A stretch of 64,000 nucleotides of DNA from Gautieria morchelliformis (taxonomy: Eukaryota; Basidiomycota; Agaricomycetes; Gomphales; Gomphaceae). The translations under genes and the position numbers were made by a program. Under the pieces are notes generated by a model. It worked only from the letters and a program-made list of their open reading frames with translations. It searched no databases and was not told the origin of the DNA. Below, one piece after another: positions 10,458-20,529 of the stretch. The DNA is taken from contig WHVA01000155.1 of assembly GCA_015179125.1 (NCBI GenBank), positions 124,001-188,000 of the forward strand, read 5' to 3'. Positions within the stretch are counted from its first letter, which is position 1; every line of letters begins with the position of its first letter.

Positions 10458-12561
10458 CTACTCCTTCCGCTTTTTCTTCTTCTTTTCTGTTGACTGTACC
10501 TCTCCCGTCTCAACCTCTTCCCTCTTACGTTTCTTTTTCTCTCCCACGCCTCCATTGACCTCTGCCTCTAACTTTTTGGCCGCCTTGGCCTCCTTTTTCA
10601 AGCGTTTCCGCTCTGACTTGGCAGTTGCCGAATCCTCAGCCTCTAGTACTTCCGCCGCACCGTCTACTTCCATCTTGAGGTCAATCTCTACTTGCTCTTT
10701 TTTGAGCCTCCTCCGCTCTTCTTTTGCGCGCTTCTTTTCTTCCTTGACATCCAGAACAGCTTTGACGGCGCGCTCTGCTGGACCCAGGTCTTCGTCGCGC
10801 TGTGTCGCGACGAGATCGACTGCATCTGCTGCTGTGTTATACGTCTTGGTGTCCTCATTCATCTCGAATTTCTTCTGCTTTTTGGAGGATGATGGATCCG
10901 CAAAACTTCGAATGCCAACAAGATCACCCTGATGTTCCAAAGCCCGTAATCGCGACTCCAGTTTAGCACGGTTTTCCATTCCAATTGTAGGCGCAGAGGG
11001 CTCCGACTTGCCATCGGTGTCAGTTAAGGCGTCAACACGAATTGAAAGGGCTGCCTTCGTCGCCACCATACGGGCCATCTACGTACACTTCTCAGCGACA
11101 TGCAATGGATTTGGTCATTACGAAGCTTACCTTCCCCTTTAGTTTGGGGGGTGCCTGACCGATTAATGAGGCCTGTAAGAAGTCAGCGATAGTACCTAGT
11201 AAACCGCGAGAGACATCTATTCACATGGTAGATTAAACCGTATTTCGGGGTATCATGCTTGGTCTTTAAGGCTCGGAAGAGTGCTTTTTCTGCCCCTAAT
11301 ATCTGGACAGTGCTGGCTGGGTGTTTGGCCAGACTGAGCAAACTACCTGCATGGCTGATCAGCCTTGCACCAACAAGCTCGCCGACAAGAGCGGTCAAAT
11401 TGGGGGCGATGGCGTTCATACGATTTCGCAGATACTCCGCTAGCTGCGAACGATACGCAGTGATGGAGATCACTTGCTCACATAGCGAATGTATGTGAGC
11501 AATATCGGAATCCGATATTTCGGTACCCATACTGATTTCGGCAGCGATTTTTAGAGTTGCCTCCAGCTCTTCTGGAAGGATGGCTGCGAGCGAAATGGAA
11601 GCCGCGTTAGTACGAAAACCTGAGGGCGTGTGTTAAGAAACGATTCGGATTCGTGCAAAGGACAACAGACCCATGGCTCGCACAACTTTTGCATATGCGA
11701 GATTGTCTGTAATGATCTTGCCCATTTCTGGGAAATGCCAGCCATACCACTCCTAAAACAGCGGAACTATCAGATCAGGAACAGCACGGAATGAAGGACG
11801 GCGACCTTCACTCGCATGGAGTATATATTGATCTCCTTGTCGAGGTCATCTAACAAGGCGATGGCTTGAACGACCATAGTATCCACCTTGTCAGGTGAGA
11901 ATTTTAATTTGAATCTGTGCACCGCTTGAGACCTTGCCGTCAACATAATAAGTAAGATCAATGACACCTTGAGAGCGAATGGCTCAGTCCTAAGCTCATG
12001 GTCGCCAGATCAGCCGGGTCGAGGCCGTCCATTAGAGCAGCTAACTGCCCTCGAATGCCACGATAAAGATCCAACGAATTACTATCAGCGACAACATTAA
12101 TGCCGAGTTTTTTAGAAATAGCCCCAGCTGCGAGATATGTAATGCCACGTAAGAATAGCGCCCCTAATAGAGAGCACGACGCACCAAGCTTCGGTTCTGT
12201 CACAGCCAAGGTCTCCTTTCCCTTACCTTTCCCCACTACCTCGTCTGACAGAAACTTTTTAAGTCCCTTGGGTAGCTTTCCATCCTGGATAGCAGTTATG
12301 TCTTCTACAGCCGTGGCTGTTGAACTAAACCGATGAAGGGCCCGAAGTTTCAACCTGACCGCGTATTGAGAACAAATTAGCACAAAAAAGACGCGTAGAC
12401 ATTACGAGACAAAGCTCCTGGAGTGCATGCAATACTACTCACAAGCTATTTGCCTGCTCTGGTGTCTCGAACTCCTGGTATAGGTTCGCACTATTTAGCT
12501 TGGCGTCATTAGTGAGCTTGAATAGACAGTATCCAAGTGCAGTTTCGTATAGAACCAACAT
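10458..12561 (-). CDS. NOP58: NOP58, core protein of box C/D snoRNPs
   Basis: Nop58 binds box C/D snoRNAs in the nucleolus and is needed for 2'-O-methylation and processing of pre-rRNA. Eight exons (12561-12443, 12354-12185, 12127-11968, 11914-11806, 11752-11671, 11619-11225, 11172-11131, 11078-10458) give 565 residues. It starts [14 protein letters not shown], continues with [11 protein letters not shown] and [10 protein letters not shown], and carries the Nop domain with [33 protein letters not shown] and [12 protein letters not shown]. The C-terminal 150 residues are the KKE/KRK-rich tail typical of fungal Nop58. Its long basic tail ends next to ENP1, another nucleolar factor. Confidence 0.96.
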
Positions 12562-12990: not shown

Positions 12991-13866
12991 CTAGGACATG
13001 GTAAAGTCCTCTGCTTCGTCGTCCCATCCAAACACGTCGTCATCAACACCAAATGCCCTTAGCATTGTCCCCAGCGTATGCGCAGGAGCGTTCATCTCAG
13101 GTAACTCGTCCTGGCTGTATGGATCCTCCGCCGAGAACTTCCCATATGGCTTCCCTATTTGATCATTTCGTTTAACATTCTTGTGCGTCTAGCACATATG
13201 ATGGGAATCACCTGTGGAACTAATATCGATACCCAGGCGAATCGGCTGGTTGGTTGTCTTCCTGATGGGTGTTCCTGATTGTGAGCCAACGAGGTCCTCC
13301 CCAGCGCCATTCTCATCGATAGCCACGTAACCCCAATTGGATTCAAACGCGCTCTCTTTTTTACCACCATCTGTATTGTCCCAACCCCAGCTTCTCCCAA
13401 GACTTCCCGGACCGGACCGCTGCTCTGGGGCCTCCATCCCCCAACCATTATCTTGACCATGTTCTCTGACAACAGACCACACTTCCCATGATACTTCTCT
13501 GCCTACAGACCTCCACTTGGTTATCAGTTGCTCCAGCTTTGCCTCCTCCTCGCCAGCTTTGATTTTGACTGCTCGCTTCAAAAGCTGCAGTCTTCGTTCC
13601 ATTGATTGAATATTGGGAGAGGACACGCATTTAGTAGTCGACGACGAGAGGGACGAGAGAGGGGACTTGAAAGGTGACTTGAAGGGTCTCGATACAGCTT
13701 TAGTGTTTTGTGATGTACCTCCACGTTGCCGGGAAACGGTCTGAGAAGTCGCCATGGTAAAGGGATTAACTTGCTGAAGCTTGGGCATGGTTATCGGAAC
13801 ATTCTTTTGACAAAGAGGGGATGTAAGTCCTTTTTCACCACCATTACCAGCAGCACCAGCTTCCAT
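12991..13866 (-). CDS. SFR1: Swi5-dependent recombination protein Sfr1/Mei5-like
   Basis: Sfr1 pairs with Swi5 to stabilise Rad51/Dmc1 filaments during recombination. Two exons (13866-13212, 13154-12991) encode about 272 residues. The N terminus is a disordered, basic, serine-rich region. The family core is the coiled coil with RRLQLLKRAVKIK followed by LEQLITKWRSVGRE; the LxxLxxKWR motif is shared with vertebrate SFR1. The C terminus has the family ending, here FGVDDDVFGWDDEAEDF, matching the GLDD...EEEF end of the human protein as I remember it. The start is uncertain: the frame is open far upstream but the first ATG is at 13866. Identification is by motif from memory, not a search. Confidence 0.65.
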
Positions 13867-14392
13867 AGCTGGAGTAGTTTGGGGTACCACGTTGGGGAAT
13901 TGAAAAGGTTTAGAGAATAACGGAGAACGAAAAGGTAGAGAGAGTTTGGAATGTTCGACTTTGTACGAAATCGACGAACGGCTGGGTGTGTGGGACGTTT
14001 TCTGTGTTTTTTATTATTTATTATTTATTTTAGAAAAAAAAAAAAAAGAGGAACGTCAAGCATGTCACACCACTTTCCAGATGGGGATGACATACAGAAT
14101 TCCTAGGGCGTTTGGAGGGCCTGACTGGTGTATCAAGAAAAACTTGACCGAGCTGAATTGCTACATTGAACACAGATATGAAGCTTTCGGACAATCGGAC
14201 ACCCACATGTTCATTTCGCGGTCGTTTGGAAGGCGACAAAAAAGCTGGTACTTGTTCAGCTTTTAGTGATGGGGTCTCTGGTAACTATGAATTAAGGAAG
14301 GGCCGGCGTCAAAATCGAAAGAATCGGGCAGCGATCAATGAACGACGCATGAGTTGTAACAGCGACTTCCGAGTTATATATATGCGTGTGAT
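13867..14392. other. AT-rich intergenic region with poly-A tract
   Basis: A TTATTATTTA-type stretch runs into a pure A tract of about 14 nt near 14034-14047. On the minus strand between 14030 and 14239 one frame contains the heptapeptide PSKRPRN twice, resembling a nuclear localisation signal; this could be a 3' extension of the tandem-exon gene, but I cannot place its splice sites. Confidence 0.4.
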
Positions 14393-15523
14393 CTAAAAAG
14401 GAAATACTCTCACCTTCGCCTCGTCCCTAGAACTCTCCACTGAGGAATTAGCCTGCACATCGTTTGTAGGGGCTGGGTAGATCTCCTTGAGGGTCAAGGT
14501 CAGATGAGGATGTGAGAAAACAATACAATAACAGCACTTTCTGTGCCGAGGGAGACTCTCCGGAATCAATCTTTTTCTGAAGCGAACGATCAGCGTACAT
14601 ATGACCCTCGAACGATGTATTGGGAGGTGACAATATGACATCATGGGTTTGGTTATCTTCCATTGGCATCGCCTATCACAGGATTATAATGTCAAGGACC
14701 CGGACGAGTATCGAGTATACATGTTTCACAGACCTCAACAAAGCATGGTCCTTGTAACTCTGGAGAGTGTTGGATCGACAATTGCGTCACCCCAGGCTGT
14801 GTACAATCATGAATCGTTGCCATGCAGGACATCAGTTCTTTCGATCCCGTGACAGGGGGAGCTGACATTTCGTTAGCGTCTGCATTTATATCCCGAGTGG
14901 GCAAGGGCAAGGGCGATGTAGAAGGAGTTGACGATACTAAGTCAATATTTTGGTAATCTTCAAACGGCATATTCTATCGCAATATTATAATGTTACGGTG
15001 CTAGGGAAAGAAGAAACTCTCACGGACCTCCACATGGAGTGGTTCTTGGAACTCCACAGAAGGCTGGATCGGCATTTGAGTCGAGTCAGGCTGCATACAG
15101 TCATAAGGCGGTACCACGCGAGGCACTATGTCCCCTGATTCCGCAGCATGGAATACTGGAATCTCATTACCATCTAAGTTGTTATCCAGGGTAGGCATTG
15201 CAGATACATAGGTAGTTGACAAGGCGAAGTGGGTATGTTGGTTATCTTCGCAAGGCATCCCCTAATCACGATGTTATGAATTCATGATGCTGGGAACAGA
15301 CCCACACCACACATACCTCCATATCGCGTGGTCCATGTACCTCAAGGGCGGATTCAATCGGCTGCATACGATCATGAATATCTGAAACGCAAGTCTAGGG
15401 ACGCAGTATGGCGCTCACTGCGTCAGAATAGCCAACGAAGGTATCTTGCACGTCGTCTTGTACGTCCATTTTGCCCTGCCCATGTTGACTTAAAGGCGCA
15501 TGAAGGGCCATGCGTTGACTCAT
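14393..15523 (-). CDS. Gene built of tandemly duplicated exons, unknown product
   Basis: A minus-strand gene in which one exon has been copied in tandem. Frame-consistent exons are 15523-15452, 15394-15317, 15261-15028 (78 codons), 14973-14734 (80 codons), 14672-14538 and 14485-14414 (45 + 24 codons). Every exon begins and ends in phase 0. The three long units each open with the same signature (MPCEDNQ, MPFEDYQ, MPMEDNQ) and the first two end in a QPSVEF/QHSPEL block before a GTC donor. Intron sequences next to the units are also alike, so exon and intron were copied together. The product is low in aromatic residues, rich in S, P, T, D and E, with no domain I recognise. The 3' end is unsettled: 14393 is the minimum, and another exon may follow. 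The start (ATG at 15523) lies about 150 bp from the divergent PCH2 start. Confidence 0.55.
14414..15261 (-). repeat. Three tandem exon-plus-intron units, period about 290-300 bp
   Basis: Units start at 15261, 14973 and 14672, so the period is 288 and 301 bp. Each has a TATAATxxxGxGATAG-like or related acceptor region followed by ATGCC(N)4GAAGATxACCAA. Unit 3 has diverged most and has gained an internal intron (14537-14486). Confidence 0.7.
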
Positions 15524-15675
15524 GGTGCGCAGATAAGTAGAGCTCACAGCGTGTGACCAATATGTGACAACGCGCCGCAAAGATCGCGTTTTCTCCGAAA
15601 CGCGATAGGTGTTGTACGTGACGCGTGAACATTGCCACAGATCAGAAGCCACCCTACATGGACCAGGACGTAGCC

Positions 15676-17677
15676 ATGAGAATGCCCTTAACCACGGGCG
15701 AAACAGCACCTGAGTCTCCAGTGCGCTGGCCTGTCCACAGTACGTCAAGGCTAACGATGATTGCTTCTACTGATTAACAGTCTTCCACCACGCCCAGTTG
15801 AAGTTCGAATATCCGCCACCTCTAACTCTCGCTTCGATACGATCCGAGAGCTAGTACGGCAACACATTTATTCTGATACACACCTCATCTTGCCTTCGGA
15901 GATTACTGGTTGGCAGAGCATCAAGACTTTAGTAGATAATGTCGAGCGGATTGTTACCTCTGAGTGCTGTTCGTTGTCCTCGCCAAAGCACAGCGAGCCT
16001 TACTCATTTAGTCAAGATCGCTAGCCTGCCCGATTGACGTCCTTCCAATGTCGCAGGCGGAGCTCCTTATCCACGTCTACCAACCTTCAGAGGATGAAGC
16101 TGCAGAAGAAATGACGAGTGGTTTTGGAAGTGATGCACCGGGAGAAGAGGTTATGGCCGCGTCCGTCTGTGACTTGCCATCTCGAGCCCTCGAGGGCTTA
16201 TGGTAGGAGAAAGTTCACACTTTCCATTGATGAGCAACTGAAACATTGCTACGTGTATAGGGAGAGCTTGATATATCCGGCCGGTATTAAATCGAAGTTA
16301 CTCAATTACATCTATGCCACTCTTGTCTTTTCCGATGCCGATGTCGATTTTAATATTGTCTCCTGGAACCGGTATTTATTTTGTCCGCTCTGACTTCTCC
16401 TTCTGCTCATTTGTTTTGTAGTGTTGTTCTGCTTCACGGCCCGTGAGTCCTTCCTTATATTTGTACTATATGTATCAATGTTTTCCAGGCCAGGGACAGG
16501 AAAGACATCACTTTCTCGCGCATTAGCTCAAAAACTTTCCATTCGACTGAGTTCTCGTTACTCCCATGCACGACTTCTCGAAATCAATTCCCATTCACTA
16601 TTCAGTCGATGGTTTTCTGAATCGGGAAAGCTCGTCCAAAAACTATTTTCTAGTGTCAATGACCTGTGTGAAGAAGAGGATTGTTTTGTAGTTGTTCTGA
16701 TTGGTAATTAATAATAGTTTAAATCGTCATGGTGACTGAACAGTATATGTTGCAGATGAAGTGGAGAGCTTGACGGCTGCTCGTGCGGGTGCCATGGCTG
16801 GCACAGAGCCCTCAGATGCATTGCGTGTATGCGATCATTGTCATAACCTTCACTGCGCTGATTCCGTGTAGGTGGTAAATGCATTGTTAACTCAACTCGA
16901 TAAACTACGACATAAGAAGAACGTGTTGGTTATGTCTACGTCTAACCTTGCGAAGGCCATAGGTTGGTTCACGCCTTAGTTTCCGTTGAGGCTGGTGGAA
17001 TCTCAAAAAGTAAACAACTCTGCTTTGACTCTTTAGACTCTGCTTTTGTCGACCGCGCGGACATAGTGCAATATGTGGACCTGCCTCCCCGTGAAGCCAT
17101 CTACGAAATCCTGCGAACGTGCCTTGTTGAATTAATTAAGAAAGGGATTGTTCAACCTCTAGTAAGCCAAGGGACGTGATGGCAATTCTGAGAAAGCTTG
17201 AATTTTTCCTGTGTCAGGATGTTCCCACTATTGCGCAGGCGGATATGTACTCCAAAACAGCTGGGGACTTTGACGGTGTCGAGGCTTCTAACAATCGAGG
17301 ACGATCAAATAGGGCTGGCCTGAAACTCCTCAAATTGTCTGAGAAATGCCGAGTATGTCACTTGCGATACCTTTCTCCTCGTCACCGTTATTAACGCTTT
17401 GCCACCTGTCCAGGGAATGTCGGGTCGTACATTGCGACGCCTCCCTGTACTCGCGCATGCAAATTATATTGGACTCCCCATTCCTGCAACGACATTGCCG
17501 TCTTTAAATCACATCACCTCGACTCATAGTAACGGCAAATCCAAGAAGAAAAAGTCAAAGAATGAAGGGATGGGAAATATAGCGGGTCCACAGACAGATG
17601 TGGAGCACTGGCTAGACGCTATGGATAAAGTTGTCGAGACGCAGATTGGCGAGCGCTCTCGCGTGGGCGCGTTGTGA
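15676..17677 (+). CDS. PCH2: Pachytene checkpoint AAA+ ATPase (Pch2/TRIP13)
   Basis: Pch2 is an AAA+ remodeller of HORMA-domain proteins acting in meiotic checkpoints and, as TRIP13, in the spindle checkpoint. Eleven exons give about 480 residues: 15676-15739, 15798-15952, 16012-16202, 16261-16371, 16422-16442, 16489-16703, 16756-16826, 16872-16962, 17037-17161, 17218-17352, 17414-17677. The N-terminal part has PVHIEVRIS and ACPIDVLP. The AAA core has Walker [30 protein letters not shown], Walker B VVLIDEVESL, sensor 1 STSN, and [24 protein letters not shown] closes the lid domain. Walker A is split by two introns around a 21-nt exon. The exon 2/3 junction is uncertain (15953-16011 or 15964-16016). 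Confidence 0.93.
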
Positions 17678-18247: not shown

Positions 18248-20529
18248 TTATGCAACACCATTGCTTTTGTCTGGTCGTGTATTTGGCAGATGTGCTTTCT
18301 CGTTGGCCTGCTGTGACACAGTCATGTATGTCCGGCCAATTTCATCGGCCTCATCAAGACCCGGCGGGACCGCAGGTTGTTGTTGCATAACAACAGACAT
18401 TGCACCATCGGTCTCAACAGCTTCATACTCTTCCACCCAATTCCGTAGAGCCATGAACCGCGGTGTCTTGATGAACTACAGCAGCAGACATGCAATTTAG
18501 CGGTCCAGATATTGCTCAGTGAAAGAGCATGCAGGCCGTACCTTCGGCACCGAATCCGTCGCCATTAAGCGGAAGACGTGGGTTTGAATGCGTTCGTACA
18601 ACCGTATCATGGTCTGCAGCTGCGTCGCATTGACCGCGTTTGCCTGCTCTAACTCCACCCGACCCTGAAAGGCCTTGCCAGTCAAATCCGTCATTACTTC
18701 GTTCAAATATGCCACGAGTTCGTTGCGGAGGCCATGGTCAATATTGAGCTCGCATTGCGAGGATGGTGCCAAGTAGGTATTATAGATGACGAAGGCCATC
18801 TGAATGAGTGCTTCGTGATGCTTCTCCATTGCGGCCTGTCCGGGAGTGCCTTTGCCACTGTTGGGACGACCTATCGATGAAGACCCTGCGGCGATAGCTG
18901 ATGACGTGATGTTGAACTTTCGTTTGAAGTCCTGTACTTCTAGCCAAAATGACAAGTTTTCCTCACAGAAGTTTCCACGTAAGAACTCGCGAAATAATGA
19001 CCGCAGGGCTGGTTCATCTAGGATGTAACGCAAGCGATCTGTGTTGGATTCTTTAGGGCCCTTTGGAGTCTGCCCCGCTTGGAAATCGGTTTTAAGTTTC
19101 TCTGCCATCGATATCCGTCGATGGATCTTGGAGTCGGTGGCTTGTGATATCGTTGTCGGATGTGCTGTACCATTACCAGGACCGTACGACACTTCATTTG
19201 CTACGCCTTCCTCGGACGCTCCCTCACCTGATGTCCGTTCAGTTGTGTTGACATTGGCCGAGGACGCGTTTGGAGAATCACGACCAGCAAGGCGAGCACT
19301 AACGGACTGCTCCCAGCGTGCTACACGGCGACCCTCGTCTGTAACACGATAAATGGCTTTGGCTGTGCAACGGAACTCGCCCTGTTCCTAAAATACCATC
19401 TTGAGTGTGTTTCTAGAAAGTAACTAACAACGTACCGCTGCCGCGGCATTCCCACCAGTCGTTCCCCGAACAGTGAAAATGACAGCTGAATCGGTACCCT
19501 TCCGTTTATCACTGACGATGGCGATCAACCCGAACCGAACAAAGTGCGCCGCCATCTCGGCCGCTTCATCCCTCCCCACTATAGAGGTGAAGTCGCAAAG
19601 CCACTCGAGGGCCGAGACAGCGGTGAAGCAGTTTTTGAAAACTTGCAGCTGGCCCTTGCCTATTAAGGCGGTAGCACGCTCATGAACGTCCATCAATGGG
19701 ATACCCTTCGATCGCTCATGGTACTCGATGCCTGGTTCTTGTGGGCCAGACACTTCAGCCGGATAATTAGGTTGTCGGCCCACAAAGCGACGAAACAGAG
19801 CCGTGATAACAGACTGAGAGATAATGATTTCATCATCGCCTGTCCGCCGCTCGAGGTGGAGAAGCTTCAAGCAAATGGGCTGGGAGGCGAAGACCTTGAG
19901 CAAGTGATCGGCGCTCATCCCGTTCTTCGATATAAATCGTTCTAGAACATGAAGACCCTTCGGTGTTAACATGTATACGCCCCGGTCCTTGAACAGGTTC
20001 GACGTTCGGTCAGCCGCGTTCTCAATTAAGCGGGCATCCATAAAGTGTTGTGCCATCGCCTTGGCCATCTCGCGGGTCATGGAGAATGTCGTGGTTGTGG
20101 TCGTCGTGACTATCCGGGAAGGCTCACGGGGGTCAGGTCCTCGGTTAGATTGTGAGAACTTGAGCGAAGCAAGATTTGCCGCTGCCTCATCTCTGGACAA
20201 GAATCAGTTTCCACTAGGGTAGACAAGCATCCAGACGAGGCGTACGTTGTGAAAGAGTTTGGGAAACTCCGAAAGAATTGCTTGTGCATCGTTAATTCAA
20301 GAGAAACAATAAGAGTGGCGAATAGGTCGAGGGTGTCCTATCATGACAAGCGAAGCAGTTGTAAATATGTGGCAACGCGGTAGACAGGGGATTAACACGC
20401 CTTTAAGAAGGGTCGGCCACGCTTAGTAGTCTTCATCATGTGGCTAGTTGAAGCATTGGGCTGGAATACAGTGTGAGCAGAAGAGACACGGCAAGCTAGC
20501 AGTTGACAGACCTGGACTACCTGCGGCAT
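18248..20529 (-). CDS. Regulator of G protein signalling with DEP domains (Sst2/FlbA type)
   Basis: RGS proteins speed GTP hydrolysis by G-alpha subunits; fungal Sst2/FlbA members damp pheromone or growth signalling. Six exons (20529-20521, 20460-20401, 20337-20246, 20192-19436, 19387-18542, 18475-18248) give 663 residues. The first exon is only 9 nt (MPQ). KRGRPFLK and DTLDLFATLIVSLEL lead into a DEP-like half, with FMDARLIENAADRT and a second DEP-like unit (ALEWLCDFTSIVGRDEAAEMAAHF). The RGS box has EPALRSLFREFLRGNFCEENLSFW. The intron 20400-20338 appears to start with GC (GCGTGT); the GT two bases further on puts the next exon into an early stop. The short C-terminal tail is disordered. 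Confidence 0.9.

Follow-up and report, generated by a model that had tools for sequence, protein, structure and literature searches.

Proposed tandem growth of a phase-0 exon array in Gautieria morchelliformis and its possible continuation into an Sfr1/Mei5-like core

In a 64,000-nucleotide stretch of Gautieria morchelliformis DNA (the window), the peptide motif MPxEDxQ recurs three times on the minus strand, with starts at 15258, 14970 and 14669, that is, at spacings of 288 and 301 nt. A reading of the sequence alone had taken these stretches for part of a gene of unknown protein family that ends at 14393. The locus raises the questions of how such an array grew, whether it is translated, and to which gene it belongs. 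The window covers 124001-188000 of contig C177 in a 122-Mb assembly of 1113 contigs, in which a second copy of the locus was not detected. Its proposed exons and introns, and those of the gene model that continues downstream, are listed in Table 1.

Table 1. Features of the array locus and of the proposed gene model (positions in the window)
Feature	Position	Strand	Basis
Array gene, proposed extent	~15523 to 12991	-	Splice model
Short intergenic stretch, possible promoter shared with the TRIP13/Pch2 gene	15524..15657	.	Both starts read by eye
e0a, putative first coding exon, MSQRMALHAPLSQHGQGKMDVQDD	15452..15523	-	Splice model; CACC precedes ATG
e0b, TCVSDIHDRMQPIESALEVHGPRDME, half-unit matching 3' half of e2	15317..15394	-	Local alignment, codon score
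Module intron 1, 55 nt, phase 0	15262..15316	-	Likeness to module intron 2
e1, full unit, 78 codons, open	15028..15261	-	Alignment, codon score
Module intron 2, 54 nt, phase 0	14974..15027	-	Likeness to module intron 3
e2, full unit, 80 codons, open	14734..14973	-	Alignment, codon score
Module intron 3, 61 nt, phase 0	14673..14733	-	Likeness to other module introns
e3a, half-unit AMPMEDNQTHD..., 45 codons, matching 5' half of e1/e2	14538..14672	-	Alignment, codon score
e3b, putative exon, EIYPAPTNDVQANSSVESSRDEAK	14414..14485	-	Splice model, codon score
e4, TPSLKAEQVPAFLSPSKRPRNEH, basic patch with SPSK (CDK-type site)	14207..14275	-	Splice model, e5 likeness
e5, LGQVFLDTPVRPSKRPRNS, second basic patch with TPVR (CDK-type site)	14096..14152	-	Splice model, e4 likeness
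e6, F[KR]SP linker, ATG 13866 (possible separate start), Sfr1/Mei5-like helix MERRLQLLKRAVK...ITKWRSVGREV, first part of insert	13212..14001	-	
e7, end of insert, Sfr1/Mei5-like C-terminal end TLGTMLRAFGVDDDVFGWDDEAEDFTMS, TAG stop	12991..13154	-	Splice model

Similarity of the units and the proposed duplicated segment

The alignment of exons e1 and e2 spans both in full at about 39% amino-acid identity, and their BLOSUM62 local score of 114 (shuffle mean, 27.8) was reached by none of 2000 shuffles. The third unit resembles both: e2 and e3a scored 51 (0 of 2000 shuffles as good) and e1 and e3a scored 40 (7 of 2000), indicating that the three units are alike beyond chance. Three units of some 70 to 80 codons had been proposed, which describes the first two well (78 and 80 codons); the third is a half copy, in which the match is limited to the 5' part (e3a) and is followed by a frame shift. 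The motif itself is present at the start of each unit as claimed, with the correction that its methionine is not the first codon, the exons of our model beginning one codon earlier (G, N or A before MP). The claim that only the edges of the units stay alike is true of the stretch common to the three copies, which lies near the junctions, and not of e1 and e2, which are similar over their whole length.

The exons at either side of the full units showed partial matches or none. The resemblance of e0b to e2 covers 26 codons only (score 43, 0 of 2000 shuffles as good), and e0b scored 26 against e1, a value that 259 of 2000 shuffles equalled. No similarity was detected between e0a and either e1 or e2 (scores of 14 and 18 against shuffle means of 18.4 and 17.8). 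At the other end of the array, e3b did not match e1 (score 17; 1654 of 2000 shuffles as good) and matched e2 out of register only (score 35; 7 of 2000).

Similar introns had been noted to flank the units, and this was confirmed by alignment with gaps allowed. Module introns 1 and 2 agree at 39 of 51 aligned bases and module introns 2 and 3 at 37 of 54, and for neither pair was any of 1000 shuffles as good; for introns 3 and 1, 13 of 1000 shuffles were. We also compared three segments, each centred on an intron and comprising the end of one exon, the intron and the start of the next exon. The pairwise DNA local scores were 48, 24 and 63, and the 99th percentile among 1500 random segment pairs of the window was 18 (the random maximum of 235 was taken to come from overlapping draws). 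The part that is alike in all three copies takes in about the last 71 nt ahead of the junctions and the first 63 nt behind them, with an identity of 0.62-0.74 in 27-nt windows, compared with 0.43 in the middle of the intron and 0.43-0.58 farther out. In a self-comparison of the spliced model, 15 of the best 25 overlapping 18-aa matches listed cross a proposed junction. The top score of 50 belongs to a match that crosses one (first 18 residues, EVHGPRDME/GMPCEDNQH versus ELQGPCFVE/AMPMEDNQT, with the slash at the junction) and is tied by an exon-internal match; the maximum in 20 shuffles, computed over a third of the cells, was 39.

Judged from these comparisons, the array is most readily understood as three copies of a segment with a phase-0 intron at its centre, placed between two half-unit exons. 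An ancestral two-exon stretch of a disordered N-terminal arm would have undergone two tandem duplications, both of a segment built around one phase-0 intron. The outcome would be three junction modules (...QP..TQ..IQ.S.E.Q.P..VE / xMPxEDxQ...), with e1 and e2 as hybrid exons between the half-unit exons e0b and e3a. We considered that units 0 and 3 might be decayed full units and rejected this, as the half-unit flanks expected from an intron-centred duplication explain them without decay. In tandem duplication of symmetric (phase 0-0) exons, an exon is copied together with an intron and the reading frame is retained. The alignments and the phases of the model fit this scheme, the intron having apparently been copied with the exon and the phase being the same at both ends. 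The central proposal of the sequence-only reading, that the array grew as a phase-0 unit was duplicated in tandem, is supported by the alignments, the model phases, the self-matches and the segment comparison; the duplication history, the splicing and the single transcript are inferred. Because these exons are phase 0, modules could be gained, lost or skipped without harm to the frame. Among the literature matches listed, in the parts of the papers available, no tandem duplication of symmetric exons in a fungus was described, which is no proof of absence.

Coding signal and constraint in the array

In-frame codon scores were calculated from the codon frequencies of 14 long frames in the window and compared with 2000 mononucleotide shuffles. 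For the array exons taken together, no shuffle reached the observed score. Taken singly, e3a was matched by no shuffle, e1 and e3b by 8 each, e0b by 16 and e2 by 29, and the score of e0a was not above that of the shuffles (562 as good); e0a is the weakest array exon. It shares one frame with e0b, and a single in-frame TAG lies between the two, which the proposed 57-nt intron, a multiple of three in length, would remove.

The proposed splice sites could not be ranked by score. When a splice-site model was built from 79 candidate introns in the window, random GT-AG pairs scored as high as the nine introns tested in 2 to 49% of cases, so that the model does not discriminate. The sites of e3b did not stand out from random GT-AG pairs, 31.6% of random pairs scored as high as the e6-e7 intron of the core, and the lowest fractions, those of the e3b-e4 and e5-e6 introns, are probably flattered by the greater length of these introns. 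The e3b-e4 intron is long (138 nt), which counts against the gene model that we prefer.

Agreement between e1 and e2 is about equal at the three codon positions (51, 51 and 45 of 78). With the alignment gap placed by hand, the NG86 method gave dN 0.44 and dS 0.83, and YN00 gave dN 0.60 and dS 0.43. In terms of these sequence comparisons, the values mean that the array is under weak constraint and that dS is unreliable. Loose selection, one half of an earlier suggestion, is in keeping with the data; diversifying selection, the other half, is not borne out, given that the two methods disagree and the codon positions are about equally alike.

One could envisage that the array is a relic, a decaying or non-coding duplicated stretch that is no longer translated. 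If the 57-nt intron is not removed, a TAG stands in frame between e0a and e0b; this and the frame shift in the third unit would suit such a relic, as would the even agreement among codon positions. Whole introns are also about as alike as the exon parts (identity over whole segments of 0.62-0.67 in the exon before the junction, 0.52-0.61 in the intron and 0.50-0.61 in the exon after it), a result that counts against our preferred explanation. Conversely, e1 and e2 are open throughout and both score as coding, the array as a whole exceeds every shuffle, and the exon flanks of the junctions are more alike than the intron middle. We consider a relic very improbable.

Possible continuation into an Sfr1/Mei5-like core

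The model need not stop at 14393, where the gene had been said to end, and can continue to 12991. When spliced, it reads as 636 continuous residues from e0a to e7 and ends in TAG, and every intron from e0a to e6 is phase 0 in this model. Pfam detected no family when the array frames were scanned singly, nor in the e4/e5 frame, nor in e6 or e7 scanned by itself, and NCBIfam had no match to e1 or e2. The whole 636-aa model with its insert kept likewise matched no Pfam family, and had three PDB matches at E 1.7-2, none of them to Sfr1. When the 99-aa insert of the core was left out, Mei5 (PF10376) was matched at E 0.0079, and no other Pfam family gave a hit at E 10 or below. The Mei5 match covers profile positions 133-202 of 207, reaches to 14 residues from the end of the model, and is below the cut-off (16.5 versus 28 bits). 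Longer insert-free pieces gave the same match (E 0.012-0.046) without an N-terminal extension; the helix alone matched Mei5 at E 0.14, no better than ChitinaseA_N at E 0.16. A search of 177635 PDB sequences, again without the insert, had a single hit within E 10, the fission yeast Sfr1 structure 3viq_A (E 0.33), entitled 'Swi5-dependent recombination DNA repair protein 1'. Both parts of the core align with it in order, positions 96-120 of 122 pairing with the C-terminal end, which contributes 1.5 bits on its own.

Other searches added little to this assignment. NCBIfam returned for the core only a non-significant match to DGQHR (E 0.19). A PF10376 search of the whole genome found nothing, and none of 14 control genomes matched either, so this search is uninformative. 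In viral and genome contig collections, neither of which is meant to hold fungi, e6 had 10 and 39 pattern matches, none confirmed. Nothing was found in the literature on Sfr1/Mei5 in basidiomycetes, and no work on Sfr1 in mushrooms was among the matches listed. The downstream core is likely Sfr1/Mei5-like, by a sequence resemblance that is weak but consistent, because both libraries pick the same family, the same end and the same order. The description of the array as belonging to an unknown protein family is probably wrong, as far as can be read from the sequence, since the frame can run on into this core.

We lean, by a narrow preference, towards the array being the 5' part of one Sfr1/Mei5-type gene whose N-terminal arm grew by exon duplication. 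This preference is a matter of judgement and not a computed value, and its main rival is that two genes are present. Counted in favour of one gene were the repeat with its phase-0 frames, the continuous model and the presence of Swi5 and Rad51-family genes in the same genome. We also counted that the duplicated SKRPRN exons need a home, together with the numbers of SKRPR, F[KR]SP and CDK-type sites. Exons e4 and e5 share PSKRPRN (score 39; 2 of 5000 shuffles as good, and 29 of 2000 at the DNA level), and the two occurrences of SKRPR in the six-frame translation of the window are both in the 636-aa model. F[KR]SP occurs five times in 127996 six-frame residues; three of these are in the model, one of them upstream of ATG 13866 and in the same frame. 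The 175 residues from e4 to the helix hold four full CDK-type sites where 0.75 are expected (21 of 5000 shuffles had as many). Counting against the preferred model, the array itself lacks any full CDK-type site, and SP/TP is not in excess there (5 against 4.6 expected).

If two genes were present, an orphan disordered array protein (from 15523 to about 14393, or as far as about 14030 if e4/e5 belong to it) would be followed by a separate Sfr1-like protein of 272 aa that starts at ATG 13866. The composition in front of this ATG is what a separate start might leave. The 135 nt upstream are poor in G (0.104, a value as low being found in 0.13% of 3753 coding windows), which follows in part from the peptide encoded, for which 0.151 is expected. 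Pyrimidines make up 0.644 of the same 135 nt (95.9th percentile), and the 91 nt next to the ATG are pyrimidine-rich (99.2nd percentile of 3977), as might be the case in a separate 5' leader. Moreover, e3b if left unspliced runs soon into an in-frame stop (after EAKVRVFPF), and an A/T-rich stretch with AATAAA lies at about 14032-14002. The coding signal of e4 and e5 is weak: e4 is not above shuffles (546 of 2000 as good) and e5 was equalled by 180, the upstream part of e6 by 161, and the three together by 34. Another frame of this part of e6 is also open, and the similarity of the upstream part in the model frame to the downstream linker (144 of 5000 shuffles as good) is equalled by that of a control frame (112 of 5000); both results count against one gene. 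With two genes, however, the SKRPRN exons would be left without a convincing terminal exon, the frame of e5 ending in FLFFFFF and a stop. The Sfr1 frame, moreover, continues upstream without a stop as far as the proposed e6 acceptor and contains an F[KR]SP motif that the linker of the core also has, and the array and Sfr1 frames join in phase, for which the chance is one in three. Taking both sides together, we regard two genes as a serious possibility, clearly the less probable of the two arrangements.

Both the phase-0 continuity and the leader-like composition would be explained if one locus had two promoters, with a long Sfr1 form that includes the array and a short form that starts at 13866. 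No single result needs two starts, and we think this arrangement unlikely. Should the array and core form one gene, an apparent orphan repeat gene would be the N-terminal arm of a conserved recombination mediator; should there be two, the array would be an ordinary, probably lineage-specific, disordered protein.

The proposed arm, known Sfr1 proteins and neighbouring genes

Sfr1/Mei5 is the partner of Swi5, and in fission yeast the disordered N-terminus of Sfr1 (residues 1-176) anchors the complex to Rad51 via two basic sites (PMC7093153). This arm carries CDK sites, a predicted nuclear localization signal at 92SKKRAR97 and predicted PEST sequences, and its phosphorylation by CDK lowers Rad51 function (PMC11445502). 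In the core, the weak match to S. pombe Sfr1 comprises a helical part that contains LxxLIxKW and then an end that contains FGV, ordered alike in both proteins; the end accounts for the 1.5 bits given above. In the arm, the S. pombe basic patches lie near CDK-type sites (92SKKRAR97 in Site 1; K157, R158, K160 and R161 in Site 2), and SKRPRN occurs here twice near such sites, a likeness of arrangement and not of arm homology. Unlike S. pombe Sfr1, whose N-terminal part comprises 176 aa, the long model has an arm of about 450 aa, with a duplicated exon module in it, and an insert of about 100 aa in the core.

The array is acidic (-0.108 per residue). In a charge-hydropathy comparison it was on the disordered side (0.433 versus 0.452), as was the stretch from e4 to the helix (0.427 versus 0.450); all five segments including the core fell on that side, so the method does not discriminate. 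In the proposed protein, the acidic array would come first, followed by the two basic SKRPRN patches with a CDK-type [ST]Px[KR] site next to each of them; a helical core of the Swi5-binding type would come last. If fission yeast Sfr1 is taken as the guide, the basic patches would serve to enter the nucleus and to anchor the protein to Rad51 (and Dmc1), the CDK sites would tune this, and the acidic array in front would act as a flexible spacer with a regulatory role. The array arm may thus be, by analogy and inference, an elongated, regulatable tether of a Rad51 accessory factor. The suggestion of a recognition or scaffold protein is probably not right, a disordered N-terminal arm of such a factor being more likely. 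We had also considered a role for the Rad51 acidic patch and dropped it, for the available passages of PMC7837696 tie that patch to Rad52, Rad54 and Rad55-Rad57 and not to Sfr1.

Repeat expansion at the N-terminus of an Sfr1 protein has a counterpart in rodents. RSfp is a 16-aa proline-rich peptide repeat in the N-terminal part of rodent Sfr1 (PMC2954829); its copy number differs between mouse strains, with 5 copies in E14 cells and DBA/2J and 6 in C57BL/6J, and rat has 2. The unit found here differs from RSfp in being about 290-300 bp long and containing an intron, and if both hold, the rodent and fungal repeats would be convergent. Given one gene, tandem repeats would have lengthened the N-terminus of Sfr1 on at least two occasions, in rodents and in this fungus, and the effect of arm length on anchoring to Rad51/Dmc1 would become testable across strains or isoforms.

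The divergent neighbour upstream of the array gene is a TRIP13/Pch2 gene on the plus strand. It begins near 15658 by eye, and the proposed starts of the two genes are about 134 nt apart. A profile scan of the window placed TRIP13_N within 15761-16024 on the plus strand (E 6.6e-14), the AAA domain within 16394-16711 and the TRIP13 lid within 16946-17179. In the short stretch between the two starts we noted ACGCGT at 15621 and an inverted pair of CGCGTTT (15585-15591 and 15598-15604), which may resemble MCB/MBF cell-cycle boxes. The window as a whole holds more CGCGTTT than expected (13 against 6.05), and no enrichment of ACGCGT was found there (10 found, 10.9 expected). One may speculate that the anchoring arm consists of interchangeable phase-0 exons, that skipping or copy number in different strains sets its length and regulation and so tunes meiotic recombination, and that its gene is driven from the stretch shared with the meiotic checkpoint gene TRIP13/Pch2; we hold this extended proposal to be unlikely. 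Farther out, an RGS-domain gene is located at 18497-19387 (minus strand, E 6.1e-23), and a gene for a Nop/NOP5 snoRNA-binding protein at 10458-12401 (minus strand, Nop domain E 1.9e-48).

The same genome has Rad51-family genes and a Swi5 partner, the latter matched by PF07061 above the cut-off on contig C515 (E 1.9e-8); two of the 14 control genomes were matched by this profile, below the cut-off. PF07061 also matches three shorter copies of the Swi5 gene, two on contig C237 and one on C1, which cover profile positions 27-54 only. In the pairs compared, these partial stretches are 93-97% identical over 1.7-2.6 kb. A 301-bp piece has four matches, two of which, on C237, are 100% identical and in opposite orientation. 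The partial copies look like a segmental or repeat-borne duplication of part of Swi5.
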